This document shows positions 2,772 to 29,936 of a stretch of DNA of 30,734 nucleotides, one piece after another (the stretch's first letter is position 1; each line of letters begins with the position of its first letter). The notes beneath the pieces were generated by a model. The model did no database searches and was not told where the DNA came from. It worked only from the letters and a program-made list of their open reading frames with translations. The position numbers and the translations under genes were made by a program. The stretch is from a virus. Location: positions 1 to 30,734 of IMG/VR virus record IMGVR_UViG_3300035145_004205; one strand, 5' to 3'.

Positions 2772-3320
2772 TTAACCAAATACCCCACAGTTAACAAGAG
2801 ACTGCAAAACATCTAATAACGCTTTAGTAGAAGATTCTCTGCATGTTGATCCTGTACAATCCATTAAAGGTTTAAGAAATTTATCAATATCATCAGGTGT
2901 TCCCATTAGATGCTGTGAACACATATCATAAGAATCTTTACAAGGAACTGACTGGTATGATTGATCTCTTAGTTGATTATAATGTTCTAAAGATTCTGGA
3001 TGAGCTGCATGGTATTGTATATGATCTACGTATTCTTGTGGCGTAACAATACCATCATCGTTTAAGTCAAAATGATGATGCAGTTCCTCAGGCGAAATAT
3101 TTCCTTGATGATCAAATTCTATTTCGTGATGAGCTTCACCATGATCCATTGAGTCTAAACTGTAGTCAGAATCCACTCTACTTTCTTCAGGTGAACATTG
3201 ACATATTTCGCATCCACAGCAATCACAAAGTGCATCGCATCTGCACGGGTTATAACCACAACCTGAGCATGTTCCTGATGACATGTCTAAAAATTCTCTA
3301 ATAAGTTTTCTCTCGTTCAT
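2772..3320 (-). CDS. Cys-rich EF-hand protein
   Basis: A 182-residue acidic protein with three zones. Residues 1-14 (MNERKLIREFLDMS) resemble the leader of the packaged proteins in block B, although the LxE cleavage motif is not clear. Residues 18-42 hold ten cysteines (C18, C21, C26, C28, C32, C34, C35, C37, C40, C42), which could bind zinc or another metal. Residues 85-96 (DLNDDGIVTPQE) form a canonical EF-hand loop with D, N, D, a main-chain ligand, T and E at positions 1, 3, 5, 7, 9 and 12; residues 70-80 may be a degenerate partner. The C-terminal third has four more Cys. Calcium binding is likely; the role, perhaps structural in the virion, is inferred. Confidence 0.7.
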   Translation of the reverse strand: MNERKLIREFLDMSSGTCSGCGYNPCRCDALCDCCGCEICQCSPEESRVDSDYSLDSMDHGEAHHEIEFDHQGNISPEELHHHFDLNDDGIVTPQEYVDHIQYHAAHPESLEHYNQLRDQSYQSVPCKDSYDMCSQHLMGTPDDIDKFLKPLMDCTGSTCRESSTKALLDVLQSLVNCGVFG

Positions 3321-4511: not shown

Positions 4512-4512
4512 T

Positions 4513-5739: not shown

Positions 5740-6800
5740 TATTTGTTCCTATTGAATATGTGAGCATTGCCTTCTGCATGCGATGATGTTGTTTGTCTTC
5801 TAAAGACAGCGTTTTCGTATAATTCTTTTAGATTACTAGCACCGCTATACGACATACCACTTCTTACGTTAGACATAATCTCATTGACGACCTTTGATGT
5901 TGTTCCTTTATATGGAACAAATGATGAAACGCCTTCGATTGAGTTATAAGTCCCTTTCCAGTTTTTTTGTGCTGCCTTTGATGCCATGCCGTTATATCTC
6001 TTAATCTTTTTACCGTCCTGAATAATTACTTTGCCTGGAGTTTCTCTTGTTCCACTTAACATTGATCCAAGCATTACAAAATCTGCTCCTGCTGCAAGCG
6101 ATTTAACAATATCACCGCTGTTCTTAATGCCGCCATCAGCAACAATATAAGGTGCTGGCCAGTCTTCACCGCTATCAATATATTCTTGTCTAGCTTCATA
6201 ACAGTCTAAGACTGCCTGAAATGTTGGGATTCCGTGCCCAGTCTGTATTCTTGTTGTACAAATACTGCCACTTCCAACAGAAGTTCTTATAGCATGAGCA
6301 CCTGCTAGTGCAAGACGTTTATAAGCATATCCTGTAGCAACATTACCTGCCATAACAAATAGATGTGGATATTCACTTCTGATAAATTCTATTACTTTTT
6401 CCATAAGAATATGGTCGCCATGAGCAATGTCAATACAGACAACACTTAAATCATTTTTTACTAGCTCTGATAATCTTTCCTTGTAATCTCCTGTTGCACC
6501 AATTGCTGCTGCTCTATAGTCTCTGTGGTTAACATAACCTAATAACTTAGCTTGAAAATCAATTGAGTTGTATCTATGAATAATTCCTAGTCCACCTTGA
6601 CTAATCATAGCATTAGACATATGAGCCTCTGTTACTGTAGACATAGGTGAGCTGATGATTGGTATATTGAATTTTAAGTTTCTGTTATTGTATTTTACTT
6701 CAATAGAAGTATCTATATCTTTTCTAGTTACTAGTTCTGAGTATTGTGGTTCTAATATAACGTCATCAAAACTTAGCACTTCATTATTATTAATTCTCAT
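5739..6800 (-). CDS. guaC-like: GMP reductase / IMP dehydrogenase family enzyme
   Basis: A 353-residue TIM-barrel enzyme of the IMPDH/GMPR family without CBS domains. Catalytic Cys181 lies in GSGSICTTRIQTG, ADGGI at 221-225 binds phosphate, and GSMLSGT follows. The N-terminus (FDDVILEP, STVTEA, GGLGIIHR) looks like IMPDH. The C-terminal flap instead looks like GMP reductase: GMASKAAQKNWKG followed closely by SIEG with Glu at 289, and there is no Arg-Tyr dyad as in IMPDH. YSGASNLKEL also resembles GMPR. I favour NADPH-dependent GMP to IMP conversion because purA and purB follow directly and would take IMP to AMP. IMPDH activity (IMP to XMP) remains possible. A GTGTAA promoter-like site lies upstream. 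Confidence 0.72.
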   Translation of the reverse strand: MRINNNEVLSFDDVILEPQYSELVTRKDIDTSIEVKYNNRNLKFNIPIISSPMSTVTEAHMSNAMISQGGLGIIHRYNSIDFQAKLLGYVNHRDYRAAAIGATGDYKERLSELVKNDLSVVCIDIAHGDHILMEKVIEFIRSEYPHLFVMAGNVATGYAYKRLALAGAHAIRTSVGSGSICTTRIQTGHGIPTFQAVLDCYEARQEYIDSGEDWPAPYIVADGGIKNSGDIVKSLAAGADFVMLGSMLSGTRETPGKVIIQDGKKIKRYNGMASKAAQKNWKGTYNSIEGVSSFVPYKGTTSKVVNEIMSNVRSGMSYSGASNLKELYENAVFRRQTTSSHAEGNAHIFNRNK

Positions 6801-6856: not shown

Positions 6857-7777
6857 TTACATATTATTTAAAAAGTCTTTTCGATATTTCATAAGAGCTT
6901 TTTCTTTGCACTTAGCCTCGAGCATTACGTCGACTGATTTACCGCAGCTATCAAATGGTTTATAATAATAATCTGAATGTGCTGCAGCTGATCTTGTTGT
7001 AGGATCTTCGAACTCTTTTTTTCCATTTGAATGGTGGCATGTTGGCCGAATAGTTGATGGCCATGAATCGAAAGCCATATCAAAAGACTCGTCATAAGGT
7101 GCATCTTGTGGACCTAAGGTAAAGTGGTGTGCGTCAAAAACAATAGGAACCTTAGAAACTTTATAAATATTTTCGTATAGGAACTTTGAGCTAAACATTG
7201 AAGCTTTGTCATCGTTTTCTACTGTAAGTCTTGATTGAACTGAAGTGGAGAGCCTTTTAAAGTTTTTATTAAAGTTATCAGCAGCAAGTTGTAGATTACC
7301 TCCACACGTTGAACCTAAATGGATATTGATTTTTGACCAGTGGTCTTGGTCTAATCCCATAAGATCAAACAACTTGCCATGTATTTCTAAGTCTTTGATA
7401 CAATTGTCAACAACATAATCTTTTTCTGATGCAAGGCAGTTAAATTGTCCTGGGTGAAATGAAACTCTCTGCCTAATAACTTTAGTATAATCACCTGCCA
7501 TTTTTAGATAATGTTTTATTTCTTCATAATCAGGCAAATCATGAAGCTCGTACTCAGATGCCCAAGGAGCAATCTCTGACGAGATCCTAAAAACTTTAAT
7601 GTTGTTTTTATAATTCCAATTAAATATAGGCATCAAGTCTTTTACGTTTTGCAATACCAACTGCGAAACGTAAGGCAGACCTTTTGATAAAAAGGTAGCT
7701 TTGCGCATCGTTCTAGAATTGAATATACCTTTTTCTCGTAACTCCATATTAATGCATGCATATCCAAATCTATTCAT
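6857..7777 (-). CDS. uvdE-like: UV DNA damage endonuclease (UvdE/UvsE family)
   Basis: A 306-residue TIM-barrel endonuclease that nicks DNA 5' of UV photoproducts. Family landmarks are in order: an N-terminal GYACINMEL strand, FRISSEIAPWAS, RVSFHPGQFN, the metal-binding NIHLGSTCGG, LTVENDD, VFDAHHFT, and the C-terminal DVMLEAKCKEKAL. Length matches the family. It gives light-exposed phage DNA a photoproduct repair route separate from T4 DenV. It is transcribed away from the packaged-protein island, with a divergent 91-base region between. A GTGTAA promoter-like site and an AAAAAAGGA Shine-Dalgarno precede the ATG at 7777. Confidence 0.9.
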   Translation of the reverse strand: MNRFGYACINMELREKGIFNSRTMRKATFLSKGLPYVSQLVLQNVKDLMPIFNWNYKNNIKVFRISSEIAPWASEYELHDLPDYEEIKHYLKMAGDYTKVIRQRVSFHPGQFNCLASEKDYVVDNCIKDLEIHGKLFDLMGLDQDHWSKINIHLGSTCGGNLQLAADNFNKNFKRLSTSVQSRLTVENDDKASMFSSKFLYENIYKVSKVPIVFDAHHFTLGPQDAPYDESFDMAFDSWPSTIRPTCHHSNGKKEFEDPTTRSAAAHSDYYYKPFDSCGKSVDVMLEAKCKEKALMKYRKDFLNNM

Positions 7778-7800
7778 ATTATTATCCTTTTTTATTATAT

Positions 7801-7830
7801 TTTATATAATAATATTCATATTTATTACAC
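7801..7830 (-). promoter_or_regulatory. GTGTAA-18-TATAAA promoter of uvdE-like gene
   Basis: Minus strand: GTGTAA (7825-7830), 18-base spacer, TATAAA (7801-7806), 24 bases before the ATG at 7777. It lies in the 91-base divergent region shared with the plus-strand ART gene. No GTGTAA copy faces the plus strand here, so the ART gene probably uses a different, perhaps late, promoter. Confidence 0.6.
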
Positions 7831-7868
7831 AAATACACGATAAAATTACAACGAGGGTTTGTAAACAT

Positions 7869-10670
7869 ATGAAAAACAATATAAGATGGTTATTAACAGA
7901 AGCAAAAATATCAAATATTGATCCTAACAAAATAAACTTTATAGATGGAAAGTTAATATGTTATCACTTAACATCAAAACAAAAGTGGATAGATAATAGC
8001 GAGATTGTAAGATTAATGGATTCGCCTTTTCCACCTGCAGACAAGGAAATTCTACCTACAGACAATAGAGCACAAAGAATTTTAAAAAAAATATCTAATG
8101 ACAAAAAAAACGTAAGACCTAAAGAATGGGAAATAGAAGAGTTTGTTATTACTGATATGATGGAAGATCCTTATACAAACACTAGCGGCTTTACTGCAGG
8201 TGGCGGTGACTACCATGGCAAAGGCCTCTACACTTGTTATAAGTTTAATCCTAAAATTGCAAGTAATTATGGTAACATATGTTTAGTATTTGAAATAGAT
8301 ATAAGTAACTTCTTAATAACTTTCGAAGACTTAGCAAAACAAGTTCATGGTGAAAACTGGAGAATCAAAGACCAGTTGGTAAAGCTCTATCAGTTAGAAG
8401 AAAGAAGTCCTGAAAGTATTGAAAAGTATAAGCAATTTTTGTCTGGAATACCTGACAGTGATTTGCAAATGGGAACTTCAGTTCAAGATCTTTCTACTAG
8501 AACAGCGCATATAAGTTTAAGATTACTTCGTGAATTTACAAAACAAAATATAACGTGTTTTTACGATGGCGTTGTACTATTTGGATCTGGAGATGGTCCT
8601 GTTTGCGTTTCTTTTTTGCCAAAATATGATGCTAAATTAATTGGACTAGGAAGAGTTAACAAGGTTAAACCTGAGATTGTTGACTGGTATGATAGCCTTG
8701 ACGATTTTCTTGGTGGACGTGCAAAGCTAAAGCAAGACTTTGAAACTCTAAACGACATCGCCATAGAAATTACAGATCCTGATGAAAAAGAAGAAATGAA
8801 GTCGAAAGATCGCTTGCCTTTTGATATGGAATATATAGAAATTTCAAAATTTTTCAACTCATACTATAATGCAAGTGATAAAAAACTAAGTGCTATTAAT
8901 GAACTATTTGACCTTTATGACAAAACAAAATCATCAAATGATCAATCAAAGCTTGAATTTTTCTTAAAGACTTTTAAAATGTCTAAATATTCAACTGACG
9001 TTGAATTAATTAAGCATCCAAGATTCAGTGAAATAAGTGACGAAGTTATTAAGTTTTACAATAGTAAGGCTTGGGACATGAGTATATACTATTATTCTGG
9101 CATACTAAATGTTTGTAGTCAATACAATATAAAAGTTTCTGAATTTTTCTTAGAAAATGCAATTAACGAATGTTTAAATGAAAAAATATTTAGAGCGAAA
9201 CAAGGATATGCAGTAGTACATTTTAACAAATTCCTTAATTCGTATCTAGAGAAAAACGGAGGCAGTGCCTATGTCCGTAGTATTTTACAAGACAAGTTAT
9301 ATGAAGTTGAGCCTGCCATAGCTGTTACATCAAACAGCGCTGAAAGAATTGTAGATGCTTATAACAATGGAGATAAACGTAACAAAAACAAAATACTTGA
9401 TTTAATATCACAAGACTTAGATAAAGTTGGAGGACAACGAAATTGGGGAAGAATTTCTTCTGATAAGTTTGATACTGCTAACGAAATATTAGAAAGAATA
9501 GTAGAAGCTATTTCTAAAAGCCCAAGCAATGATCATGAAATAGAATTTATCAAGTATTTAAGAGATGACTTGCCTTATACAGATTACTTCTCTAATATAA
9601 TAGACGAGTTCTTAGCTGAAGCTTTTGTTAATAATATTGCTGAAATTAAATCAATGAGTCCTAAGAGTCTATTTGTAAATACTTTAAATTATATTAAAAG
9701 AAAGCTAGGTGAATCTCATCCTAAAGTATTGCAAGCAAAAGAATTTATTGCGGAAGATGCTGCTAACGCAGGAAGAGACATTGAAGACTTTATTGAAAAA
9801 CTAAACTTAGGTAAAGTAACAAATTCACAACTTAAGTTAATGTTTAGAAGACTGCAAGAAGACTTACCTTATATTTCATATATTAGCGGAAAAACAAAAG
9901 ACTGGTTTAAAACATTTGTTAATGCTGTTATAAACAATATTACTATCAAAAACTTTAAAGTTTTAGGAAAATCAGAAACATATTTTCTTTTAGCTATTAT
10001 ATTAGGACAAGATATTATATTGTCTAGAGATGAACAGATTTCTTTTACAAATAAATTTGGTAAGTCTGACTATAACAGTAAAAATCTCATTGCCAATTAT
10101 AGGCACATTGATCCAGACGTTTTTATTAATCTAATCGGTCCAGACCTTAAAGCAGGCGGGATGGGTCCAGGTTTGACGTTTAAAGGCTTTGAATACACAC
10201 CTAATATTTATAGACTCTTGTATAATCACAGAAAAATTGTAGATCTTTTTTGCGACGTAGCTCGACCAGGATTGATGAAAATGATTATAGGCAACCTTAA
10301 CGACGAGCTTATGGGTCATCCTAATCCACAACATACTTGGGGTCAAAGTGGTTTTCTAAAAGGATCGTCTGTAAGCTACCACTTTGATACACTTCCTTAT
10401 ATACATGATACTAGTGAAAAAATAAAAATATCAGAAGCAGTCAACATGGATGACATTGCTTGGTTTGAATACTTTATTAGCAAAGCCAAAAAAGCACCAA
10501 AAAGAGGTGTTGCTGGAGTTATCGCTACACTTGAAATGAATCTTAATGACAAAAAATCAAAAATGCAACCGACAACATCTACTCAGACAAGTGATGATTT
10601 AGATCCTCAATTAGATTTAAGTCATAGAAAAATCGTAGGCAGTTCTCTTAAAGAAGTTTATAATTTTTAA
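7869..10670 (+). CDS. ADP-ribosyltransferase-like protein with capsid-targeting leader
   Basis: A 933-residue protein. The frame stays open upstream, but the start at 7869 is chosen because ACGAGGG lies just before it and because it yields a leader MKNNIRWLLTE|A like the neighbours. Residues 30-150 carry ADP-ribosyltransferase features of the H-Y class: CYHLTS (H33), then GDYHGKGLYTCYKFNPKIAS (113-132; Tyr121 in GKGLY) and NYGNICLVFEI, close to the PARP/diphtheria-toxin pattern G-x-G-[IL]-Y followed by S..Y. I could not assign the third catalytic acid. About 650 helical residues of unknown role follow. T4 Alt is the precedent: a packaged, injected ART that modifies host proteins. The same job is inferred here. 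Confidence 0.7.
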   Translation: MKNNIRWLLTEAKISNIDPNKINFIDGKLICYHLTSKQKWIDNSEIVRLMDSPFPPADKEILPTDNRAQRILKKISNDKKNVRPKEWEIEEFVITDMMEDPYTNTSGFTAGGGDYHGKGLYTCYKFNPKIASNYGNICLVFEIDISNFLITFEDLAKQVHGENWRIKDQLVKLYQLEERSPESIEKYKQFLSGIPDSDLQMGTSVQDLSTRTAHISLRLLREFTKQNITCFYDGVVLFGSGDGPVCVSFLPKYDAKLIGLGRVNKVKPEIVDWYDSLDDFLGGRAKLKQDFETLNDIAIEITDPDEKEEMKSKDRLPFDMEYIEISKFFNSYYNASDKKLSAINELFDLYDKTKSSNDQSKLEFFLKTFKMSKYSTDVELIKHPRFSEISDEVIKFYNSKAWDMSIYYYSGILNVCSQYNIKVSEFFLENAINECLNEKIFRAKQGYAVVHFNKFLNSYLEKNGGSAYVRSILQDKLYEVEPAIAVTSNSAERIVDAYNNGDKRNKNKILDLISQDLDKVGGQRNWGRISSDKFDTANEILERIVEAISKSPSNDHEIEFIKYLRDDLPYTDYFSNIIDEFLAEAFVNNIAEIKSMSPKSLFVNTLNYIKRKLGESHPKVLQAKEFIAEDAANAGRDIEDFIEKLNLGKVTNSQLKLMFRRLQEDLPYISYISGKTKDWFKTFVNAVINNITIKNFKVLGKSETYFLLAIILGQDIILSRDEQISFTNKFGKSDYNSKNLIANYRHIDPDVFINLIGPDLKAGGMGPGLTFKGFEYTPNIYRLLYNHRKIVDLFCDVARPGLMKMIIGNLNDELMGHPNPQHTWGQSGFLKGSSVSYHFDTLPYIHDTSEKIKISEAVNMDDIAWFEYFISKAKKAPKRGVAGVIATLEMNLNDKKSKMQPTTSTQTSDDLDPQLDLSHRKIVGSSLKEVYNF

Positions 10671-10679
10671 GGTAAAATT

Positions 10680-10964
10680 ATGTTGCCGTTTAGAGAAAAG
10701 ATAATCGAAGAAACAGAAACATATATACTCGTCCAGCGCAACTTCATGTCAGACGTGTCTGGTGATGAATTAAACTGGCATATGGACAAAGAAGATCGAG
10801 AAGTCTTTGTTGTTGAAGGTGACGGATGGTATTTGCAAATAGAAAATGAGCTGCCTCAAATGATGCAGAAAGAATCTTTATTTAAAATACCTAAAGAAAT
10901 ATGGCATCGAATAATTAATAGAAACGGAACAAATTTAATAATCAACGTGAGAAAATATAAATGA
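10680..10964 (+). CDS. Small single-domain cupin
   Basis: A 94-residue protein whose centre reads as a cupin barrel: ELNWHMDKEDREVFVVEGDGWY (about 30-51, similar to cupin motif 1, G..H.H....E.) and IPKEIWHRIINRNGTNLIINV (about 70-90, motif 2, with W-H). Potential metal ligands are H34, E38 or D39, and H76. It has no capsid-targeting leader although both neighbours do. It follows the ART gene by nine bases and its stop overlaps the next start (ATGA), so it is translated with them. Substrate and enzyme activity cannot be judged; it may be a small stabilising or regulatory protein of the same late transcript. Confidence 0.65.
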   Translation: MLPFREKIIEETETYILVQRNFMSDVSGDELNWHMDKEDREVFVVEGDGWYLQIENELPQMMQKESLFKIPKEIWHRIINRNGTNLIINVRKYK

Positions 10965-12712
10965 ACTTGTTATTAAAACAATATATTAAAAATTATTTAT
11001 TAGAAGCTGCATCAACTGCAATTGCGATGCCAGCAAGCTCTATCGGTGGAGAATTTCAACACAACTTAGGTGCATCATATCAAAACGATATGACTTCTTT
11101 GAATGATGAAGAATCACTTTTAAAAGTTTTAGAAAATGTCGGTAATAATTGCTTTATTTCTTTTGTAGACAAATACGACGAAAACATACCAAGGTTAGAA
11201 ATAAATCCTGACGTTTCTTACGACACACCTCACGGAAATTATGCTTACCCTCTTACAATTAAAAGTCTTAAAGATATTATAGAAAAGTCAAGAATTGGAG
11301 GTACATCTTTTGCATTAAATAGACCTTATTTTCATATGTTTAAAAAGTCTAATAATGTTAACGCAATAAACTTAGAAAAAGATGGAAGTAACAATTATTC
11401 AGGAGACTTTAGAAAAGACTTGAAAACAATTGTACATACATCTATTATATTTAAAGCAGCAAAATTTTTAGAATCAAATGAGTTTGTAGATATGTCTGAT
11501 TTGACTGCTAATTATAAATCCCAAGCAATATTTTTTGCGAAAAATCGAATTGGAAGGAAAATTAAAGCTAATAGTAATAATAACATTAATGACAATAGGG
11601 CATTCAATAAAACTTTGTTAGATCTTTTAGCGCAATTATGTAGATTATACCAACTTAATAATAATCAATTTCCAATTAATGAAACTAAAATTATTGTAGA
11701 CTTCATTAGTAAACAAATTTATGATAGGGCAAATTCTAAAAACAATATATTTTTTAATAAAAAGACAAACAAGGCTTTATCTGATTTTCATATTCTTTAT
11801 TATGGATGTTGGTTACTTTCTACTTTATTAACTGAGGAATCTTATTCTGACTTTCCTTCTGATAATGATAATCGCATCATGGGTCCTGTTTTTACTATGC
11901 TTTTAAATTCTATAGATATTGATTTTATAAATGATAAAGGCTCACAAACTATTCACAAAAATGAACCTATACAAGCTGTTTATTTAAATTCGTCAAAAGA
12001 AGAAAATATTGTTTTAATTGGAACTTTTAATAATATATTTAGCACAAAAAAAATTAATTCCATTGATGATCTATTTAATGCATATCACGAATCAAGTTCT
12101 AACTCAAACAAGGGCGTTACAATGAACAAAGTAGTTGATATGATTGAAAAAAATCCACAACTTGGTGATCTTTTTGGAACTGAACTTTTTGATGATGTTA
12201 AATTAGAAAATTCCTTAGAATATCTAAGAGAAAAAGCATGGCAAGATTTAACTAAAAAACAATTAAAGATTGCAAAGTTTAAACAATTTCATTTAGCAAA
12301 TAAAATAATAAGACTAAACATATACCAACAATCTCAAAATACTTCTAACCCAGGATTAATAATATTTGATATTGGAATTAAAAAAAGCTTTAAAAATGCA
12401 GATATAAACCAACAGCTTTTAATGATACATGAAGACCTACCAAAAATAGTTCAGATCGAAGATTCACTCACTTATCTTCAAGTATTTTTGTCAAAATATC
12501 AGAAAAAAAACGTATATCACATTTTTGGTATGAATGCTTTATCAAACATGACAGAAACGCTTGATAAAATACAAGATTATGCAGCAAGCATTGAAATTGA
12601 AAGCGAAGAAGTTAAAAAGCAAGTTATGTCACTTCAGATGTTTATTTACATAGTTCAGGACATTATAAATCTCGCTTATATAGCTCATGAAAGTACACTA
12701 CATGACAGTTAG
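10961..12712 (+). CDS. 583-aa putative internal head protein
   Basis: The protein opens with MNLLLKQYIKNYLLE|A, a basic amphipathic leader ending in a T4-like prohead-protease site (L-x-E before A). Behind it comes a short linker rich in A, S and G, then a segment around residues 70-110 with NPDVSYDTPHGNYAYPLT that I associate only vaguely with conserved phage proteins, and a long AT-rich helical body containing many N, K, I and D. No catalytic motif is visible. Its position between the ART-like protein and the histone-like proteins, with the same leader, suggests a packaged protein of unknown function. Confidence 0.65.
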   Translation: MNLLLKQYIKNYLLEAASTAIAMPASSIGGEFQHNLGASYQNDMTSLNDEESLLKVLENVGNNCFISFVDKYDENIPRLEINPDVSYDTPHGNYAYPLTIKSLKDIIEKSRIGGTSFALNRPYFHMFKKSNNVNAINLEKDGSNNYSGDFRKDLKTIVHTSIIFKAAKFLESNEFVDMSDLTANYKSQAIFFAKNRIGRKIKANSNNNINDNRAFNKTLLDLLAQLCRLYQLNNNQFPINETKIIVDFISKQIYDRANSKNNIFFNKKTNKALSDFHILYYGCWLLSTLLTEESYSDFPSDNDNRIMGPVFTMLLNSIDIDFINDKGSQTIHKNEPIQAVYLNSSKEENIVLIGTFNNIFSTKKINSIDDLFNAYHESSSNSNKGVTMNKVVDMIEKNPQLGDLFGTELFDDVKLENSLEYLREKAWQDLTKKQLKIAKFKQFHLANKIIRLNIYQQSQNTSNPGLIIFDIGIKKSFKNADINQQLLMIHEDLPKIVQIEDSLTYLQVFLSKYQKKNVYHIFGMNALSNMTETLDKIQDYAASIEIESEEVKKQVMSLQMFIYIVQDIINLAYIAHESTLHDS

Positions 12713-12720
12713 GAATTATT

Positions 12721-12996
12721 ATGAATTATGATTTAATATTAAAAGAATTTATAAGAGAAACTTTACTAGATGAGGCTAGAAAAAAAAGAAAGCGTAAAAA
12801 GAAAAAGCGTAAAAAGAAAAGGCCTGGCAGAAAAGAATACTATCAAGGTATAAACAGTAAAGGGAAAAAAGAAATGGCTCGCGAAATAAACAAATGTACA
12901 AAGCCTAAAAATGCGCCTAAAAACTGGAAGCCACCAAAATCTTGTTATGATAGTGAATGGGAAGCAGACAAAAAAAAGTATAGGACTAAAAAATGA
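12721..12996 (+). CDS. Highly basic 91-aa putative packaged DNA-binding protein
   Basis: The leader MNYDLILKEFIRETLLDE|A matches the capsid-targeting pattern. It is followed by an extreme Lys/Arg tract (residues 20-39), then EYYQGINSKGKKEMAREI, a segment with two Cys (CTKPKNAP...PKSC) and a basic tail. Protease cutting after LDE would release a mature protein that is almost entirely basic, well suited to neutralise packaged DNA. It overlaps the next gene by four bases (ATGA). Similar leaders and composition in the next protein suggest a functional pair. No enzyme motif seen. Confidence 0.7.
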   Translation: MNYDLILKEFIRETLLDEARKKRKRKKKKRKKKRPGRKEYYQGINSKGKKEMAREINKCTKPKNAPKNWKPPKSCYDSEWEADKKKYRTKK

Positions 12997-13364
12997 ATAA
13001 TCTTGTATTACTTGAAGAATTTATAAAAGAATCTTTATTGAACGAAGCTAAAAGAGGTAGAAAAAAAGGAAAGAAAAAGTCTGCTTCTAAAAAAAGATCT
13101 GCTAAAAAAGGCAAATCAAAGTCTGCTAGGCGAAAGTCTTCTGCAGGAGGATTATCAGCTGCTACAAAAGAAAAGTTAAAAAAACATGCTGATAAGAAAG
13201 GTTATACCGCAGCGTCAGTTTATGCTGAATATAGAGCAGGATTAGCTGCATGGGTTACTGGTCATCGCCCTGGAATACCTCAACATGCTTGGGCAATGGC
13301 AAGAGTTAAATCAGCAACACCCTCAAAGCCTTGGGCTAAAGTTAAAAAGAAAAAAGGCAAATAA
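12993..13364 (+). CDS. Histone H1-like basic 123-aa putative packaged protein
   Basis: The leader MNNLVLLEEFIKESLLNE|A is nearly the same as that of the preceding gene. Residues 20-52 are a K/S/R/A-rich low-complexity tract (KKKSASKKRSAKKGKSKSAR), like bacterial and phage histone-H1-like tails. A small folded part follows with KEKLKKHADKKGYTAASVYAEY and a conserved-looking GHRPGIPQHAWAMARV, then another Lys-rich tail. I infer a DNA-condensing internal head protein. The stop is followed one base later by the TTG start of the next gene. Confidence 0.7.
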   Translation: MNNLVLLEEFIKESLLNEAKRGRKKGKKKSASKKRSAKKGKSKSARRKSSAGGLSAATKEKLKKHADKKGYTAASVYAEYRAGLAAWVTGHRPGIPQHAWAMARVKSATPSKPWAKVKKKKGK

Positions 13365-13365
13365 A

Positions 13366-14013
13366 TTGAGAAATAATAAACTACTAAATGAAAACAAAAA
13401 CATACTTTCAGAAGGATTACGTTTTCATCTGATTGAAGAAATTGGAATAGATAACAATATATATAGACCTGGATCTTCTAAATACTTTGATTTATTTAGA
13501 GAGGTTAGGGACTTAAGCCACATGGGTTTATATGAATTAAACTCAGTAGAAAAATATTTCATTACCGAAACTGATATTGGTGAGTGGGAATTTTATAATG
13601 GAAAACTAGTTCCATTAGACTATCCAATCTTAGAAGGCGACGAATCTTTAAAAGCAAGTATTCCTTTAGAAGTATTAGAAGAAAAACGTAAAAGAAAAAC
13701 GTCTAAAAAAAGCAAGTCTAAAGGTGGAAGTATGTACCAAGGTAGAAAAGTACAGCTTAACAAACCTAAAAAAGGTGGATCCAAAAAGTATTATGTTTAT
13801 GTTAAAAATCCTAAAACAGGAAACGTCAAGAAAGTTTCTTGGGGTGCTAAAGGAATGTCTGTAGGCATTAGTGATCCTAAAAGAAGAAAATCATTTGCAG
13901 CTCGACATCGATGCCATTTAACTAAAGACAAAACAACAGCTAGTTATTGGGCATGCAGAACAGGTCGTTATCCACATTTAACTGGTTCAAAAAAGAAATA
14001 TACATGGTGGTAA
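13366..14013 (+). CDS. 215-aa basic putative packaged protein, TTG start
   Basis: The frame is open further upstream, overlapping the preceding gene, but no sensible start lies there. A TTG at 13366, one base after the previous stop, gives MRNNKLLNENKNILSE|G, again a leader with L-x-E before a small residue, so I place the start there. The middle contains EWEFYNGKLVPLDYPILE. The C-terminal 95 residues are basic, with KKYYVYVKNPKTGNVKKVSW, then KRRKSFAARHRC and SYWACRTG, a pattern with paired Cys and aromatics that I recall from conserved phage proteins of unknown function. It ends seven bases from the convergent minus-strand gene. Confidence 0.65.
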   Translation: MRNNKLLNENKNILSEGLRFHLIEEIGIDNNIYRPGSSKYFDLFREVRDLSHMGLYELNSVEKYFITETDIGEWEFYNGKLVPLDYPILEGDESLKASIPLEVLEEKRKRKTSKKSKSKGGSMYQGRKVQLNKPKKGGSKKYYVYVKNPKTGNVKKVSWGAKGMSVGISDPKRRKSFAARHRCHLTKDKTTASYWACRTGRYPHLTGSKKKYTWW

Positions 14014-14019
14014 TAACAA

Positions 14020-14553
14020 TTATTTTTTCTTTTTCTTTTTAGGAAAACCTATTATAGTTCTATTGTTAAATCTTCTTGCTAGATATCCTCTTAACTGCTC
14101 TGTCATATCAAAATTACCAATTTTTTGAGAATCAGGTAAATCTTGTATTCGCTTAACTAACTCTTTAACAAAGTCTTCTTCTAGATCATTATCAACAATT
14201 TGAGAAACTTCGTCGTCTATATCAAAATTAGCTAAAAAATTATCTGGTCTATCTTCGTCTTTAACTTTATACAAAGATGTAATAAGATCAACAACATCTA
14301 ATGAACCGCCAAGAGGAGTAAAACCAAGCAAAGCTTTTCCTACTTCTAGACCTTTGCTAGTCTTACTAGAATCTGAAATTGTAATTAATATTGATTTAAG
14401 TTCTCCGTATGTAGAGTCTTTATTTAAACTTTTAATTTTCTTTGTTATCGGGTTAGCATCGTTAATTTTATTTTTTAAATATTCTATTTCATTTAATTTT
14501 CTTGTTTTGTGTATAGTTTCTCTTATGTATTTTTTTAACAATCTATTGCTCAT
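14020..14553 (-). CDS. 177-aa conserved phage protein with capsid-targeting-like leader
   Basis: Encoded on the opposite strand to its neighbours, yet with the same kind of leader: MSNRLLKKYIRETIHKTRK followed by LNE|IE. The body has a hydrophobic glycine-rich stretch GKALLGFTPLGGSLDVVDLI (about 76-95), an acidic section with DIDDEVSQIVDNDLEEDF, FDMTEQLRGYLARRF, and a terminal Lys tract. The GFTPLGGSLDVVDLI...DIDDEVS pattern is one I recall from T4-like marine phages as a conserved structural unknown. The hydrophobic stretch might interact with membrane during DNA entry, but that is speculative. It shares a 69-base divergent region with the nuclease gene at 14623. Confidence 0.65.
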   Translation of the reverse strand: MSNRLLKKYIRETIHKTRKLNEIEYLKNKINDANPITKKIKSLNKDSTYGELKSILITISDSSKTSKGLEVGKALLGFTPLGGSLDVVDLITSLYKVKDEDRPDNFLANFDIDDEVSQIVDNDLEEDFVKELVKRIQDLPDSQKIGNFDMTEQLRGYLARRFNNRTIIGFPKKKKKK

Positions 14554-14622
14554 GTTTAATGCCTTGTTTGGACTTTCTTGTATATTTACTATATATTTGT
14601 TTAATTCAAAAAAAGGTAAAAC

Positions 14623-14988
14623 ATGAAACCGTATTATTATATTGCTGAAGTTGTGTCTGTTTATGATGGCGATACTTGTACATGTGTTGTTGATTTAGGC
14701 TTTAAGACACAAGTTAGAATTAAAGTCAGAATGATTGGAATCGACACGCCAGAGATTAGAACAAAAGACAAAGACGAAAAAGAAAAAGGCTTAGCAACAC
14801 GTGATTGGCTACGTGAAAGAATTCTTGGCAAGAAAGTCCTATTACATACAAAAGAGCGTGGAAAGTTCGGTAGATGGCTTGGTATGATTTGGGAAATGGA
14901 AGAAGATAAACCTGAGTTCGAAAATAGTTATAATAAAAAATTAATAAACGAAGGTCTCGCCAAAGAATACTGGGGTGGTAAACGATGA
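14623..14988 (+). CDS. Staphylococcal-nuclease-like (TNase) endonuclease
   Basis: A 121-residue SNase-fold nuclease. Catalytic and metal-site motifs: VYDGDTCTC (residues 13-21), RMIGIDTPE (36-44, giving the first catalytic Arg, Asp and Glu) and ERGKFGRWLGMI (78-89, the second catalytic Arg at 84). The C-terminus NKKLINEGLAKEYWGG fits the family's final helix. Such enzymes cut DNA and RNA non-specifically with calcium. It lacks a signal peptide and a capsid leader, so it probably acts in the cytoplasm, perhaps in host DNA or RNA breakdown. An AAAAAAAGG Shine-Dalgarno precedes the ATG, and its stop overlaps the next start (ATGA), tying it to the 829-aa protein. Confidence 0.88.
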   Translation: MKPYYYIAEVVSVYDGDTCTCVVDLGFKTQVRIKVRMIGIDTPEIRTKDKDEKEKGLATRDWLRERILGKKVLLHTKERGKFGRWLGMIWEMEEDKPEFENSYNKKLINEGLAKEYWGGKR

Positions 14989-17474
14989 AATATAGTCTTA
15001 AAAACGAATATAAAAAATTACTTAACGAAGAAATAGTCTCTGTAATAAGAAGCTCTAATTATGCTGAAGAGATATATGATGTAAATTTCGATCCTAGTAC
15101 AGGAAAAATAATTTCAGGCGAAAAGTTTGAACCTACACAAAATACAGCTGACAGAACTTATAGAAAAATATTTGATGAATCATTAATAGCACAACAATTT
15201 ACTATTGAGTCTAGATTAAAAATAATATCTTTTTTAAATAAACTAATGAGACCAGATGCAACAGGCTCCTACAAAGGATATGGCATATTACAACCTTGTC
15301 CAAGCAATCCAATCGAAATTGTTGATCGTTTAAACAGACATTTTCGTGAGACTATTGAATGGAGACCTTCAAACAAAATTGGAAGAGGCGAAGTTTCTAT
15401 AAGGCTTGCTTTTTCAAGTAAGATTAACAACTTAAAAGAAGGTGAAGATGCAAGTAATTACAGAGAGCCTGATTTTATTGGATGGAATGAAAGAAACCAA
15501 CAAACAATCAAGCTATCAATAAAAAGTTTTGTATCTATAAAAAAGCAAGGTGCTGATCAAGCTGGAACTGTTAGAACTGGAACAAATCTAGACCCTTTGA
15601 TAATTGACATACTTGAAAAACTTAGTAAAGAAGTATTTAACGGCACCGAATATACGTCAGTTTGGAACCCTAAAAATAAAATAATTACTAATCAAAAAAC
15701 AGGAATCAATCATAAAGCTTTTAGAGAAATTGTTAATCATTATACAGAAAATGACAGCGTTACAAATAAACTGCAAAAATTAAACAAAATCAAAATATAT
15801 CTTCAAAATATCAAGAGACAAATTATTAAAGAGCACGGCGCTGTAGGTATTATTGCAATTAAAAAAAATAAAACATTTGACTATATAAGTCCTGACCAAT
15901 TCGATAGAATATCTATATACACTTTTAATGGCAAGAGGTTTTTCTTTTATATGCCAGAAGATGACTCTGAAGCTGGAAGATCAAGCTGGGAACTAGAATT
16001 AAATGATATGATTATAGAGCAAGAAAATCTTTTAAGTCAAACAGATCAAATTCCTACTGAAAATTCTTCTTATGTTCCTCAAGGCAAGGTGTTAAAAGAA
16101 GTCTATTCGTACTTATTTAAAAAAAAACTAATTAGCGAGGGTGGATTAGCAGGTCATATGATGCATCCTTATGAAGCATTAGATATGACACCAAGACAGA
16201 TAATTGATAGAATAAAAGAATATAGTAATTCACAAAAGATTATAGAAAAAGTCGACGGACAAAACTTATTCTTTACAGTCGAAAAAGACGGTACTCTTAT
16301 GTTCGCACGTAATAAAGAAGATATGACACATAATGACTTAGTAGAAAAGTTTACTAACCACCCCGCAGAAGTTCCGTTTGTTACAGGTGGCAACGCTATT
16401 AAAAAAGGTGTAGACCAGTGGTTATCTTCAGCAGGTGCATTTGGAAGTCAAGAAATATTAGATATCTTTCATCCAGATGGTGAAGCTAGATCATTTATAA
16501 ACTTTGAAATTATGCACAAAGACCACCCAAATCAATTAGAATACGGAGAAAACTTTATTGTTTTTCATAGTATTGTTGATTTTATCAATGGAAGGGAAGC
16601 AGTTTATTCTTCAAACAACAGTCAAAGGCTTAATAAATTAATTAATCTTATGAAGCCAGGCATTGAATCTTCTGGTTATACATTAGCGTCTAATAGAACA
16701 GTTGATATTAATAAACTTACAAACGTACAGATAACTCATTATGTAGATAGAATCAAAGAAATTGCTAATCGGCTAGACATTACTGAGACTGAGTTCCTTG
16801 GAGACGGAGTAGAAAAACAAATCAAAAAACAATTAGATGCTGAAGGTATTGACATCAGCGATGAAGCAATAAAAATTTTATATGACTTTGCGCTTTATGG
16901 CGAAGATAGACTAGGCAATAAAATAAAAAGTAAAGACTTTACTAGACTAATGAAGTCTGACGATGTAAAAAAACTAAGAGATATCAATTTAACTAGTGCT
17001 AACAAAGCAGCAGCTAAAGTAAGAAATATTTTGTCTCCGTTTAAAGATATATTTGTTGATCTAGGTATAGATTTGCTAGACGGTACACCTTCAGCATATA
17101 TGGATTCAGAAACTGACTTGAGAAATATTGATAATTTGCGTGACAAGCTAGAGACTGCAATTGATGATCTAAGAATGTACATGAACAGTACACCAGAAAA
17201 CGAATGGGATTCAGTAGTAACTAGACTTAAACCTCACTATGACAAAGTTGTCGAAGTAGGTGTGTACAACACAATATCAACGTCAGTTGAAGGCGGCGTT
17301 TACGACTATCAAGGTGATCTATTAAAAGTTACTGGCGGATTTGCACCGATGAATCAGATTTTAGGCGCAGCATACAGAGATAAAAAAGGTATATTTACAA
17401 CCTTTAAACAAAAGTTTATGCATCAGGAATCAAATAGAAGATCTTTAAAATCTGTTTTTAGTTCAATCTTCTAA
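14985..17474 (+). CDS. Nuclease-like plus ligase-like fusion with capsid-targeting leader
   Basis: An 829-residue protein beginning MKYSLKNEYKKLLNE|E. Residues 130-185 look like a PD-(D/E)xK-type nuclease core: GRGEVSIRLAF (133-143), PDFIGW (Asp163) and LSIKSF (Lys180), although the usual Glu of ExK is replaced by Ser. Around residue 386 begins GGLAGHMMHPYEALDMT, then the nucleotidyltransferase motif I EKVDGQNLFF with Lys422 as likely AMP-attachment site, FARNKEDM (motif III-like) and INFEIM (motif IIIa/IV). This is the covalent nucleotidyltransferase fold of RNA and DNA ligases. The last 270 residues are unassigned. A packaged protein that can both cut and seal nucleic acid ends is suggested; substrate (DNA or RNA) is unknown. 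Confidence 0.68.
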   Translation: MKYSLKNEYKKLLNEEIVSVIRSSNYAEEIYDVNFDPSTGKIISGEKFEPTQNTADRTYRKIFDESLIAQQFTIESRLKIISFLNKLMRPDATGSYKGYGILQPCPSNPIEIVDRLNRHFRETIEWRPSNKIGRGEVSIRLAFSSKINNLKEGEDASNYREPDFIGWNERNQQTIKLSIKSFVSIKKQGADQAGTVRTGTNLDPLIIDILEKLSKEVFNGTEYTSVWNPKNKIITNQKTGINHKAFREIVNHYTENDSVTNKLQKLNKIKIYLQNIKRQIIKEHGAVGIIAIKKNKTFDYISPDQFDRISIYTFNGKRFFFYMPEDDSEAGRSSWELELNDMIIEQENLLSQTDQIPTENSSYVPQGKVLKEVYSYLFKKKLISEGGLAGHMMHPYEALDMTPRQIIDRIKEYSNSQKIIEKVDGQNLFFTVEKDGTLMFARNKEDMTHNDLVEKFTNHPAEVPFVTGGNAIKKGVDQWLSSAGAFGSQEILDIFHPDGEARSFINFEIMHKDHPNQLEYGENFIVFHSIVDFINGREAVYSSNNSQRLNKLINLMKPGIESSGYTLASNRTVDINKLTNVQITHYVDRIKEIANRLDITETEFLGDGVEKQIKKQLDAEGIDISDEAIKILYDFALYGEDRLGNKIKSKDFTRLMKSDDVKKLRDINLTSANKAAAKVRNILSPFKDIFVDLGIDLLDGTPSAYMDSETDLRNIDNLRDKLETAIDDLRMYMNSTPENEWDSVVTRLKPHYDKVVEVGVYNTISTSVEGGVYDYQGDLLKVTGGFAPMNQILGAAYRDKKGIFTTFKQKFMHQESNRRSLKSVFSSIF

Positions 17475-18066
17475 ATAAAATATTAAAGATTTCTTCTTTA
17501 TCTTCGTCTGATATTTCTCTTGGTAAACCATCCAAAAATAAAAACTTATCCTCAGAAGCATTTGACAAGTAAGAGCGCATTAGTGTACCGCTAATTGCCA
17601 TTGTGTCTTCACCTCTAAGTAAGGTTCTTAAATAAACTCGATCAATAATCGGCGCGTAATACTTTGAAGAATATCTATTTTCATCTTCCTCACCTGTATA
17701 TATTGCATAAGTTGTTTCATCGTTTTTTATCGATGCTTCTTCAAGCTTTTTATAAACATTACCAACAGGTGAGCCACCAAAAACACACAAAGCATTTTGA
17801 GGCAAGTATTTTGAAATGATTGTTTCCCAAATAATTTTCATGTCTTCACCAAATATAGTGACTTCACCTTTTCTTTTTCTGTCAGATGTTGAAACATATA
17901 TAATAACTTGCTTGCATTCATCGCATGCTTTTCTTATTAATGACATATGTCCTTCATGAAAAGGTTTAGCTGACATCGGTACAAGACCAATATCATATTG
18001 ACCTTCTAAGTCATAGTCTTCGTTTATAAAGCTACGCCAATTTTCAAGCAATATATTTGATTTCAT
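17458..18066 (-). CDS. HxGH nucleotidyltransferase (NMNAT/cytidylyltransferase-like) with leader
   Basis: A 202-residue Rossmann-type nucleotidyltransferase: GLVPMSAKPFHEGHMSLIRKA (H37 and H40 of the HxGH motif) and ISGTLMRSYL (158-167, the ISxTxxR motif), as in NMN adenylyltransferases, PPAT and cytidylyltransferases. It starts MKSNILLENWRSFINE|D, fitting the packaged-protein leader. Possible products are NAD+ (from NMN and ATP) or a CDP-linked compound; sequence alone does not decide. A link to NAD+ is attractive because the window also encodes a NAD+-using ADP-ribosyltransferase-like protein. The gene's 3' end overlaps the convergent 829-aa gene by 17 bases, and its start overlaps the stop of the 97-aa gene. 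Confidence 0.75.
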   Translation of the reverse strand: MKSNILLENWRSFINEDYDLEGQYDIGLVPMSAKPFHEGHMSLIRKACDECKQVIIYVSTSDRKRKGEVTIFGEDMKIIWETIISKYLPQNALCVFGGSPVGNVYKKLEEASIKNDETTYAIYTGEEDENRYSSKYYAPIIDRVYLRTLLRGEDTMAISGTLMRSYLSNASEDKFLFLDGLPREISDEDKEEIFNILFRRLN

Positions 18067-27450: not shown

Positions 27451-28404
27451 TTAAAAAACTCCTGGCAACATAAAAGTATTATCATATTCTATAGGATTTT
27501 TCTTCTCTATATAATTTGTTTGATTAAATTCTTTTATTACAATGTTTTTTTGCAAGTAGCTATCATAAACCATTATACCTGAATTAACTAGTAAAACTTT
27601 TTTTATAAAGTCTAAAAATATATTGTGAATTATGAACGGTAATATATTTTCTACATCTTTTTCTTTATTATTTATTTTACTATTTAAAACTAAGTCTTTG
27701 CAAAGAGAAAAGCTATAGTCTTTTTTAAACATTGTATTCATATGATCGTATAAAGATATTATTATCTCTTCGTTTTCTTTTATGTGTTTAACCTTAAAAT
27801 TAAACAATTCAGACTTAAAGCAGTTATATTCGCTTAAATAAAAATTAATTTTATACCTTACTGGAGGTATAATATTAGATGAATTTAATAGTTTACAAAT
27901 ATTATTTATAGTTTTTTCTGAATTATCTATCAGTACTGATTTTTTACCTTTGGAGCAAAACTTTCCTTCTCTTCCTTTTGTTTGATTAAAAATATATAGT
28001 CCTAAAAAAATAAAATTTTCGTTGTTACTTTTTGTAAAACACAAAAATCTATTTTCGTTTTTTTTAATTTTTATGTCATCCCATAAGTCTTCTGATTTTT
28101 TTTTGTTTATACTGTTTATTAAACTTAACATGTTTGAATAATCATTAGACTCAATAGAATAGTATTGACTTAATGTATCACAGCATAATCCATCAACATC
28201 TCTTGGTTTTTTAGTTCTAAAATCTATTACGAATCTTTGCTTTTTTATTGACCATCTAATTGGATAAATGTTATTATAGCTAAATTCAATACAACCTTTT
28301 TTAGATATTATTTTTAAAATATTTTTATAAAAAGCTAAGCTTTTTGGTATAGTATTAATATCATAGATTTCGTAAGGTTTGACTGCATCAATTAAATCAA
28401 TCAT
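27451..28404 (-). CDS. 317-aa unknown, extremely AT-rich
   Basis: The frame is open to 28458, but the ATG at 28404 has a good Shine-Dalgarno (AGAAGGAAT) and only an eight-base overlap with the upstream gene, so I start there (MIDLIDAVKPYEIYDIN). Visible parts: RWSIKKQRFVIDFRTKKPRD (about 50-70), DGLCCDTLSQYYSI, ENFIFLGLYIFNQTKGREG and several K/N-rich loops. No family recognised. With the 601-aa and 91-aa genes it forms a block of strongly AT-rich, low-homology sequence. Confidence 0.6.
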   Translation of the reverse strand: MIDLIDAVKPYEIYDINTIPKSLAFYKNILKIISKKGCIEFSYNNIYPIRWSIKKQRFVIDFRTKKPRDVDGLCCDTLSQYYSIESNDYSNMLSLINSINKKKSEDLWDDIKIKKNENRFLCFTKSNNENFIFLGLYIFNQTKGREGKFCSKGKKSVLIDNSEKTINNICKLLNSSNIIPPVRYKINFYLSEYNCFKSELFNFKVKHIKENEEIIISLYDHMNTMFKKDYSFSLCKDLVLNSKINNKEKDVENILPFIIHNIFLDFIKKVLLVNSGIMVYDSYLQKNIVIKEFNQTNYIEKKNPIEYDNTFMLPGVF

Positions 28405-29065
28405 TATTCCTTCTAAAGACTTCGTATACTTCTGTTTTGACTTGAGATTCTGGTCCAATAGTAATAGGAGAATTGCTTAGTTTTTTAGCATCTTCTTTTG
28501 ATTGCTGCTTTCTAGCTATTGATTTGAGCTTTTCACTTGTTGCTGATCCTCTTTTTTCAATTTCAAATTTTAAATCAGACGGACTATAAGCAGATTTTCC
28601 ATCAACATCTAAAAGAGTAACTTGAACTAGTCCTTTAATAAAAACATGAAGAACTTTCTTCTCACTGTCAGTAAGCTTATTAAAATATTCTTCTAGCTCA
28701 ACTTTAACTTCCTTGTCTGATAAAGATCTAGAAGCTCTAAATTGATTTAATATTTTAATTAAGTTTTTAAATTCTTTTGCATCGCTTAGATTAATAGTAG
28801 AAGGTGACTCATCTGGAGTGCTGACTTTTTCGTCTTTGTCAGACTCTTTGTTGTCATCATCTTCATCATTAATATCTTTTTCTGCTTTTTTTGTAATTGA
28901 CTCGTCAGAGTCTTCTTTTACTTTTCCTTTAATAGTATCTTCATGATAAGCGCCTCTAGATCGAGCGTCTGCTATAAAAGCATTTGCTTTGTCTTTTGCA
29001 TTTTCCCACTGATCGTTGCTTTCGTTTAGGATTTTTTCTAATTTACTAATAATGTCTAAGTTCAT
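28397..29065 (-). CDS. 222-aa conserved phage unknown
   Basis: Begins MNLDIISKLEKILNE|S, leader-like; then an acidic linker rich in D, E and K (about 45-90), and a folded C-terminal half with LRFKL-type helices: KVELEEYFNKLTDSEKKVLH, FIKGLVQVTLLDVDGKSAYS, PSDLKFEIEKRGSATSEKLK. The segment 'VTL.DVDGK.A.SPSDL...IEK.GSA.SEK' is one I remember in marine T4-like phages. GGGAGGATAAAAG precedes the ATG and the start overlaps the 57-aa gene's stop (ATGA). Function unknown. Confidence 0.7.
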   Translation of the reverse strand: MNLDIISKLEKILNESNDQWENAKDKANAFIADARSRGAYHEDTIKGKVKEDSDESITKKAEKDINDEDDDNKESDKDEKVSTPDESPSTINLSDAKEFKNLIKILNQFRASRSLSDKEVKVELEEYFNKLTDSEKKVLHVFIKGLVQVTLLDVDGKSAYSPSDLKFEIEKRGSATSEKLKSIARKQQSKEDAKKLSNSPITIGPESQVKTEVYEVFRRNND

Positions 29066-29248: not shown

Positions 29249-29605
29249 TTATGCTTTTTCTTCTTTTATAAAAGTTAACTTAACATTATAAATATTTTTA
29301 AAACATTTTTTTATTTTAAAAGAAGCCAAATCTTTAGACAAGTCGTATGTAGATAATGTTTCCTGCCCTAGTTTGACAAAGACGATATCCTGTTGTTTTG
29401 AAAATAAACTCTGCAAGTCTTTTTCATCTAACATGATTGTTAACTTTCTCTTTGTTGGTGTTTCTTTTAAAGATAAAACAGATAACTTTTTATTATTAAT
29501 TTCAAAGCTCAAGTAAGCATTTTCATCTTTTGATAAATTGCTAAGATCAATAATATCTTTTAAGTCATCTGACAAAAATATTTGATTTTCATTTTTTGTC
29601 TGCAT
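29249..29605 (-). CDS. 118-aa unknown, beta-rich
   Basis: Contains LSFEINNKKLSVLSLKETP, RKLTIMLDEKDLQSLF, IVFVKLGQETLSTYDL and a final strand NVKLTFIKEE: alternating hydrophobic and polar residues that suggest a beta-sandwich or barrel. No signature residues. It overlaps the upstream 115-aa gene by 17 bases and has no clear Shine-Dalgarno, so it is probably translated by coupling. Confidence 0.6.
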   Translation of the reverse strand: MQTKNENQIFLSDDLKDIIDLSNLSKDENAYLSFEINNKKLSVLSLKETPTKRKLTIMLDEKDLQSLFSKQQDIVFVKLGQETLSTYDLSKDLASFKIKKCFKNIYNVKLTFIKEEKA

Positions 29606-29936
29606 AATAATACATTACATCTTTTTTAATTTTATCAATATCTTTAATCGCTTCTTTTTCAAGTTCTGTAACTACATTAGCATAAGAATGAACAATAATA
29701 CCAATTTTAAGATCTCTAAATCTTAACTCAATATCTGCGTCTGATTCTCTTTTGTATTTTATAATCTCTACCGCAAAAGCTTCGACAAACTTTCTCTTTT
29801 CAAATTCAAAAACTCTTTTAATAGAATTATCTGTATATTCCCATTCTGATTTTTTAACACTAAGCGGCTTAAAGTTATTTTCAACTTCAAAATTTGATTC
29901 ATTTAAATAATTTGACATGACTGTTCTTAAATACAT
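29589..29936 (-). CDS. 115-aa protein with pterin-dehydratase-like (DCoH) fold
   Basis: The C-terminal 80 residues follow the layout of pterin-4a-carbinolamine dehydratase: WEYTDNSIKRVFEFEKRKFVEAF (strand, then helix entry), a helix AVEIIKYKRESDADIEL, then KIGIIVHSYANVVTELEKEAIKDIDKI, matching the family's V.V.L.TH...G.T..D...A..ID. The catalytic His pair (HHP) seems to be replaced by DA-D, so enzymatic activity is doubtful and a structural or protein-binding role more likely. Similar proteins occur in T4-like phages. It starts MYLRTVMSNYLNE|S, again leader-like. Confidence 0.5.
   Translation of the reverse strand: MYLRTVMSNYLNESNFEVENNFKPLSVKKSEWEYTDNSIKRVFEFEKRKFVEAFAVEIIKYKRESDADIELRFRDLKIGIIVHSYANVVTELEKEAIKDIDKIKKDVMYYYADKK

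Follow-up and report, generated by a model that had tools for sequence, protein, structure and literature searches.

In bacteriophage T4, the unrelated internal proteins (IPs) IPI-III and Alt bear a short N-terminal leader ending in (L/I)-x-E, the motif published for the gp21 protease (PMC9026906), and packaging directed by the capsid targeting sequence (CTS) has been described together with injected IPI (PMC3012670). Reports on T4-related phages count at least ten IPs; their genes were found through the signal sequence, and Ip2 and Ip3 are described as anti-restriction proteins (PMC12373910). In the giant phages phiKZ and SPN3US, many head proteins are likewise cut after E, and many of these are ejected (PMC5694885, PMC9026906), and S77 proteases in jumbo phages are already known (PMC7824862). 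In this study, we analysed the complete IMG/VR record IMGVR_UViG_3300035145_004205, a 30,734-base fragment of an uncultured giant phage (hereafter, the window), together with its relatives (the clade). Eight proteins of one locus in the window begin with short leaders ending in (L/I)-x-E, and these leaders are very probably T4-type capsid-targeting propeptides that serve head targeting and cleavage.

The clade resembles T4 in its S77 protease, in a motif common to the tagged proteins and the major capsid protein, and in variable cargo. T4 has three IPs plus Alt, whereas 12 to 45 tagged genes were counted per large relative (score ≥8); in the clade, moreover, the E lies mostly at residue 14-19, enzymes are found among the predicted cargo, and an internal site stands between fused domains. 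The protease of phiKZ and SPN3US is of a diverged S80 type and most listed SPN3US propeptides exceed 100 residues (PMC5694885), whereas the protease of the clade is clearly of the S77 type and the sites there lie at roughly residue 9 to 42. Microcystis phage Mel-JY01 also has S77 and unites cytidylyltransferase-like and RNA-ligase-like parts in one protein, with IAE/GG before the latter (a slash marks the predicted cut throughout); it differs in being cultured, 190 kb long and poorer in strong leaders (6/218 at score ≥7 vs 6/694 in the control). The leaders of the clade are not described in the portions of the open-licence literature searched, and absence from print is not thereby established. 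The principle is that of T4; no counterpart was seen in the literature searched for the scale on which this clade would use it, for its enzymes as cargo or for fused cargo that is cut. We regard the system of the clade as the T4 internal-protein system in enlarged form.

Shared leaders in the window and in related contigs

All eight leader starts named in a preliminary description of this DNA were located in the sequence. They are listed below with the share of family members that have [LI]xE in aa 5-36, where this was counted; internal 32-aa windows of the same families served as comparison.

7869..10670, plus strand: 933-aa predicted cargo protein; leader MKNNIRWLLTE/A, nt 7869-7901
10961..12712, plus strand: 583-aa predicted cargo protein; leader ...IKNYLLE/A, nt 10961-11005; [LI]xE in 8/8 members
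12721..12996, plus strand: 91-aa very basic predicted cargo protein; leader ...FIRETLLDE/A, nt 12721-12774; 2/2 members
12993..13364, plus strand: 123-aa basic predicted cargo protein; leader ...FIKESLLNE/A, nt 12993-13046; 14/15 members
13366..14013, plus strand: 215-aa predicted cargo protein; TTG start; leader ...NILSE/GLRFH, nt 13366-13413; phrog_7595 match
14020..14553, minus strand: 177-aa predicted cargo protein; leader ...KTRKLNE/I, nt 14488-14553; 7/7 members
14985..17474, plus strand: 829-aa probable polyprotein; leader MKYSLKNEYKKLLNE/E, nt 14985-15029
17458..18066, minus strand: 202-aa adenylyl/cytidylyltransferase-type protein; leader MKSNILLENWRSFINE/D, nt 18019-18066

The first of these starts is an ATG inside a longer open reading frame (ORF; 7701-10670). 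The mature parts were described as having no other similarity, and BLAST clustering fits this description except that 14985 and 17458 fall in one single-linkage cluster, which we presume to arise from a fusion protein.

Relatives were gathered via two window proteins and an alignment of the conserved KaiC/RadA-like ATPase (44 loci). Four exceed 200 kb, namely, G007 (239,550 bases), G008 (211,364), G012 (235,681) and G013 (273,025); by ATPase identity, G007 and G008 are close (90%), and G012 and G013 are distant (54%). A position weight matrix seeded by the eight window leaders alone was scored on 1474 N-termini from 12 other contigs, with every protein that clusters with a seed excluded and with internal-Met segments from the same proteins as control. 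At the strict threshold of 8, the matrix recovered 65/1474 other-family N-termini and 22/4726 control segments (Fisher p 7.5e-24), so that the motif model proposed earlier did yield further members when run over the related contigs.

A second model, likewise seeded from the window, was iterated, and whole families were held out when scored. It placed 143/1598 proteins in 97 families at ≥8, compared with 27/5200 controls; going by the control rate, about 8 of the 143 matches would be false. The window leaders themselves scored 18.3 (10961), 15.9 (14985), 14.8 (17458), 12.6 (7869), 9.5 (13366), 7.1 (12721), 5.2 (14020) and 4.2 (12993) in this model, 5/8 thereby reaching threshold 8 and 8/8 threshold 4. 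Six of the 38 window proteins scored ≥8, namely, five of the eight and 25383, compared with 27/5200 in the internal-Met control (binomial p 4.7e-8). At threshold 5 there were 11/38, among them two likely false positives (GroEL 21851 and cupin 10680).

In the consensus of the 172 proteins scoring ≥6, positions P3, P4, P7 and P11/P12 are hydrophobic, P6 and P10 are basic and P1 is E; E, S, A and N are the commonest residues after the cut, and the P1 E lies at residue 14-19 in 107/172 proteins. When the consensus leader was typed as a query against a collection of phages, the single match was an uncultured 484-kb record (E 5).

Head protease, capsid protein and T4 substrates

The gp21-type protease, on whose presence the earlier interpretation depended, was found in all four relatives longer than 200 kb by the Pfam T4 gp21 (S77) model, PF03420 (E 8e-26 to 1.5e-29). 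As a control, the same model finds T4, P-SSM2, HTVC008M and Mel-JY01, gives weaker matches to two uncultured huge-phage records and has no match in T5, crAss001 or phiKZ. PHROGs classes the clade protein as a head maturation protease (2.6e-51), and its gene lies near the portal and major head protein genes. In G007, a single gene separates portal and protease; the protease is followed by one gene, the genes of two short tagged proteins, two more genes, a scaffold-like protein (named by position only, with no family match) and, last, the major capsid protein. The protease has (L/I)-x-E near its own N-terminus in 4/4 relatives; T4 gp21 likewise has such a site, LIE-9 (PMC9026906).

The propeptide of the T4 capsid protein gp23 is 65 residues long (PMC5694885). 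When gp23 was aligned with the four capsid proteins of the clade, all four had VLRE or LLRE in the column of the residue-65 cut, and the LRE site is immediately followed by a stretch of variable length.

Trained on clade sequences only, the leader model was also applied to 235 T4 proteins, where gp24 ranked 2nd, ipIII 4th, gp22 5th and ipII 8th; the other four of the top eight were DNA ligase, DNA-end protector gp2, NrdC.9 and gp31.1. Four substrates would fall in the top eight by chance with a probability of 1.9e-5 if the seven listed at first are counted and of 6.6e-5 if ipI and gp21 are added. No leader-score excess was detected in T5 and crAss001, both of which are without S77.

Sites at domain starts and the 829-aa protein

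In three cargo families, the site keeps its place relative to the following domain, and the E and its L/I partner are retained although the remaining leader varies. The site directly precedes GL[RKQ]FH in 9/9 members of the 13366 family (residue 13-25), [AS][YL]V in 7/7 superoxide dismutases found in relatives (residue 23-42) and GG[LKA][AG]GHM in 10/11 members of an RNA-ligase-like family (residue 29 to 783), where it reads ISE, LNE, INE, ITE, IAE or MLE. P3 is L or I in 24/26 members with a site. These patterns were chosen after the families had been viewed; those of the first two families demanded L/I/V/M at P3 and E at P1, and all 16 members matched, whereas the three site letters were left free in the RNA-ligase-like pattern.

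The RNA-ligase-like family includes the C-terminal part of the 829-aa protein, which has an internal site directly before this part:

16131..16139, plus strand: internal site I-S-E/GG, residues 383-385 of the 829-aa protein

E385, G386 and G387 are invariant in 8 sequences, and the structure model has a predicted local distance difference test score (pLDDT) below 50 at residues 311-397. The eleventh family member, in G013, is without the upstream part: the protein starts M-GG, and in-frame stops and a ribosome-binding-like site lie immediately upstream; a natural protein start therefore coincides with the predicted cut. Given the site at the domain start and the free domain in G013, the 829-aa protein is probably a polyprotein that would be cut at both sites. 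In G003, a C-terminal part 90% identical follows a different N-terminal half that retains the MKYSLK start, and in G008 the N-terminal half occurs alone, leader included.

The earlier label of ligase for the C-terminal part is likely right, with weak scores. K422, V423, D424 and G425 (K-x-D-G) are invariant in 8 sequences, and ranks 1-8 of the Foldseek search were all RNA or tRNA ligases; the best E was 4.4e-3 (prob 0.95), none reached 0.001, TM-scores were low (up to 0.40) and root-mean-square deviations were high. A sequence search of the PDB with this part gave no match. The nuclease label given earlier to the first half of the protein was judged by eye, as was DNA condensation by the basic proteins of the locus; both are putative.

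Predicted cargo in the window and across relatives

The functional labels first given to the other window proteins fared unevenly. That of nucleotidyltransferase for 17458 was supported by TIGR00125 (37.1 bits over a cut-off of 27.7) and phrog_3462. The 933-aa protein had been labelled an ADP-ribosyltransferase, for which there was no match in Pfam, PHROGs or PDB sequence searches; its AlphaFold model, with pLDDT below 50 over most of residues 1-320, also gave no such support. In this family (8 aligned), R6, W7, L8, L9 and E11 of the leader are invariant, and a long helical region follows the N-terminal region. The 583-aa protein had no family match in Pfam or PHROGs searches. The 123-aa protein has a DUF5824 domain (PF19141, 1.6e-7). 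In its family, two small basic tagged proteins are fused into one ORF on the G003 contig (15716-16327, minus strand; within L023), and the same leader occurs both at the start and inside, as if it had been copied by recombination.

The clear nuclease of the locus is without a leader:

14623..14988, plus strand: SNase-family nuclease (PF00565, 2.4e-11), overlapping the start of the next gene

Its IAE belongs to the beginning of the domain proper, and three of the seven sequences compared have IAD or KAK there instead.

Leader-like starts had also been proposed for the first three of the following genes, and a fourth was added here:

28397..29065, minus strand: 222-aa protein; leader ...KLEKILNE/S, nt 29021-29065
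29589..29936, minus strand: 115-aa protein; possible leader MYLRTVMSNYLNE/S, nt 29898-29936, weak by score
25383..27206, minus strand: 607-aa protein; uncertain leader ...KKAILE/N
2772..3320, minus strand: 182-aa Cys-rich protein; possible leader MNERKLIRE/F, nt 3294-3320, score 5.0

The first is a good candidate (score 7.8; [LI]xE in 10/10 members vs 27/166 internal windows). The second is plausible by its family (7/8 members vs 12/29 internal windows), with a score of just 2.2. The third is unsettled, scoring 14.5 but having the motif in 2/4 members and in 148/299 internal windows. The Cys-rich protein is possible further cargo, its family having [LI]xE at the start in 10/10 members vs 1/99 internal windows.

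Tags in the relatives sit on many genes dispersed over the genome. At score ≥8 there were 14 tagged genes in G007, 18 in G008, 12 in G012 and 45 in G013, counts that are rough because gene starts came from a simple custom caller. Judged by eye, G007 has 25-30 tagged genes, which exceeds its scored count because the model misses some likely leaders. A second leader type, in which MK or MR is followed by I/V/L and then by T/S/N (e.g. MKITKRQLRRIIKE), is carried by 24/45 tagged genes in G013. These second-type leaders (L097-L111) are often followed soon by another (L/I)-x-E, and the tag set of G013 is the richest seen.

Twenty proteins tagged by score or by eye were given to Pfam. Of the first ten, two from relatives were named, an Fe/Mn superoxide dismutase (1.2e-19) and an HAD_SAK_1 phosphatase (6.5e-19), the latter placed by PHROGs in the polynucleotide kinase family; the remaining matches were a weak one to lysozyme and two DUFs below threshold. 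A further ten, from G013 and G012, gave nothing above a curated cut-off.

When gene lists were compared, a cargo island between UvdE or GuaB and a serine-rich lipoprotein was recognisable in the relatives compared, with differing contents; members of the 933-aa and 583-aa families are absent from G005, G006, G007, G008 and G010. Such variation is what the gene content of an exchangeable toolkit would look like. The 581-aa serine-rich protein of the window (18358-20103, minus strand) has a lipoprotein-like start and lies at the island edge in relatives.

Proposed mechanism and alternative explanations

The S77 protease, the capsid site, the recovered T4 substrates and the anchoring at domain starts strongly support, at the level of sequence, the idea of T4-type capsid-targeting leaders for a gp21-type protease. 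By analogy with T4, the short leader would carry a protein into the prohead core during head assembly, and the phage's own S77 protease would remove it by cutting after the E of (L/I)-x-E, the same type of site as in maturation of the capsid shell. The freed cargo would remain in the head with the DNA and then enter the host alongside it; injection of most of the cargo is likely on this analogy. The 829-aa protein would be loaded whole, and its two cuts would release the N-terminal part and the RNA-ligase-like enzyme as separate products. As with the T4 IPs and Alt, the cargo would probably help in the first minutes, for example through RNA repair, oxidative protection, host modification or anti-defence.

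A more extended reading, to which we give about an even chance, is that the clade injects a large, exchangeable toolkit of tagged proteins, about a dozen to about 45 in each virus. Among them would be an RNA-repair set (the RNA-ligase-like enzyme, the polynucleotide 3'-phosphatase-like HAD protein and the adenylyltransferase) and superoxide dismutase, and some would be loaded as polyproteins and split by the head protease within the capsid. If this holds, counter-defence and repair would begin before any phage gene is read. If the mechanism is true, the tag would list, from sequence alone and across the clade, the proteins that an uncultured giant phage brings into its host, and it would provide a natural set of head-targeting tags. 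Injected cargo would comprise enzymes as well as inhibitors, head proteases would also separate fused cargo enzymes, and the open question of which proteins giant phages inject would become directly testable.

Several observations weigh against the reading of the leaders as capsid-targeting propeptides. No S77 prohead protease was found by profile search in the 30.7-kb window, itself a fragment, and the S77 model had no match in 13 shorter contigs (seven plus six first relatives), which are fragments of 25-116 kb. By itself, (L/I)-x-E occurs widely: at residues 5-17 the four large relatives are enriched in it no more than 1.4 to 2.5-fold, and the values for T4, P-SSM2 and HTVC008M (1.4-1.5) and T5 (1.3) are near the low end of that range. 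At thresholds 5-7 the model gives false matches to GroEL, guaB and purB. It misses T4 Alt, ipI, gp68 and gp23; sources disagree as to whether gp68 is cut (PMC5694885, PMC9026906). P-SSM2 and HTVC008M carry S77 yet have no significant leader excess, the total count for T4 shows none either, and phiKZ, which is without S77 and of which half was examined, has a slight excess (2/149 vs 0/669, p 0.03); the leader model is thus not a universal detector. The RNA-ligase-like protein of G013 has no leader, so packaging of this cargo need not occur in every relative. The late-promoter word TATAAATA, considered as a sign of late expression and rejected, precedes 0/21 leader genes and 12/256 other genes in G007, 4/22 and 5/229 in G008, 0/12 and 0/245 in G012, 0/47 and 2/273 in G013, and 0/9 and 0/29 in the window. 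It is enriched at leader genes in G008 only (p 0.004), with no excess when the five contigs are pooled (p 0.18).

An unlikely explanation, though the most probable of the alternatives to cargo delivery, is that the leaders dock proteins to the scaffold during assembly and are cut, the cargo then being mostly degraded or kept in the shell with little or none injected. Two tagged G007 genes (121413 and 121786) sit between the protease and capsid genes, the position of T4 core gene 22, T4 core genes 67 and 68 lie on the protease's other side, and gp21 also cuts the core proteins in T4 (PMC9026906). However, many tagged genes are far from the head cluster, some of the cargo is enzyme-like (superoxide dismutase, HAD phosphatase, nucleotidyltransferase), and the tagged set differs among relatives, unlike core proteins.

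Much less probable still is a role of the leaders in localisation or interaction (membrane, replication compartment or tail) in which (L/I)-x-E would be incidental. The alternation of hydrophobic and basic residues in the consensus could indeed bind membranes or other proteins, but against such a role stand the retention of E and of its L/I partner next to domains in leaders that otherwise change, the same site in the capsid protein and the recovery of T4 gp21 substrates by the leader model. Chance, that is, an AT-rich genome yielding K/L/I/N/E-rich N-termini from which eight look-alikes were picked, has next to no probability: (L/I)-x-E does occur in many internal 32-residue windows (391/1004 in the 933-aa family), but the same-protein controls given above and the density of [LI][LI]xE starting at residues 11-15 (10-31 per 1000 vs 1.2-2.1 internally in the four large relatives) already refute it, unless gene starts are systematically wrong.

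Neighbouring genes and upstream signals

Beside the predicted cargo, the window encodes GroEL, a sigma-70 factor, PurA-, PurB- and GuaB-like enzymes, and UvdE. The PurB-, PurA- and GuaB-like genes stand in a row at 3333-6800 (minus strand). The PurA-like protein is diverged (310 bits to PurA, cut-off 402); its identification as PurZ was rejected, the score being 122 bits at an NCBIfam cut-off of 300 and PurA matching better, so a modified-base (2-aminoadenine) pathway is not established.

An 8-mer, GTGTAAAT, lies about 35-90 bases upstream of nucleotide-metabolism and early-region genes, for example upstream of 5739-6800 (minus strand) in the window, and is perhaps an early or middle promoter. 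It precedes 17/252 non-leader genes vs 1/25 leader-called genes in G007, 9/226 vs 0/25 in G008 and 2/27 vs 0/11 in the window, and the sole leader-called gene with it in G007 is guaB, a false leader call. In the G002 contig, at about 18.8-25.7 kb (L010-L011), the gene for the DNA polymerase III alpha subunit appears by eye to be split by inteins or homing-endonuclease-like ORFs.

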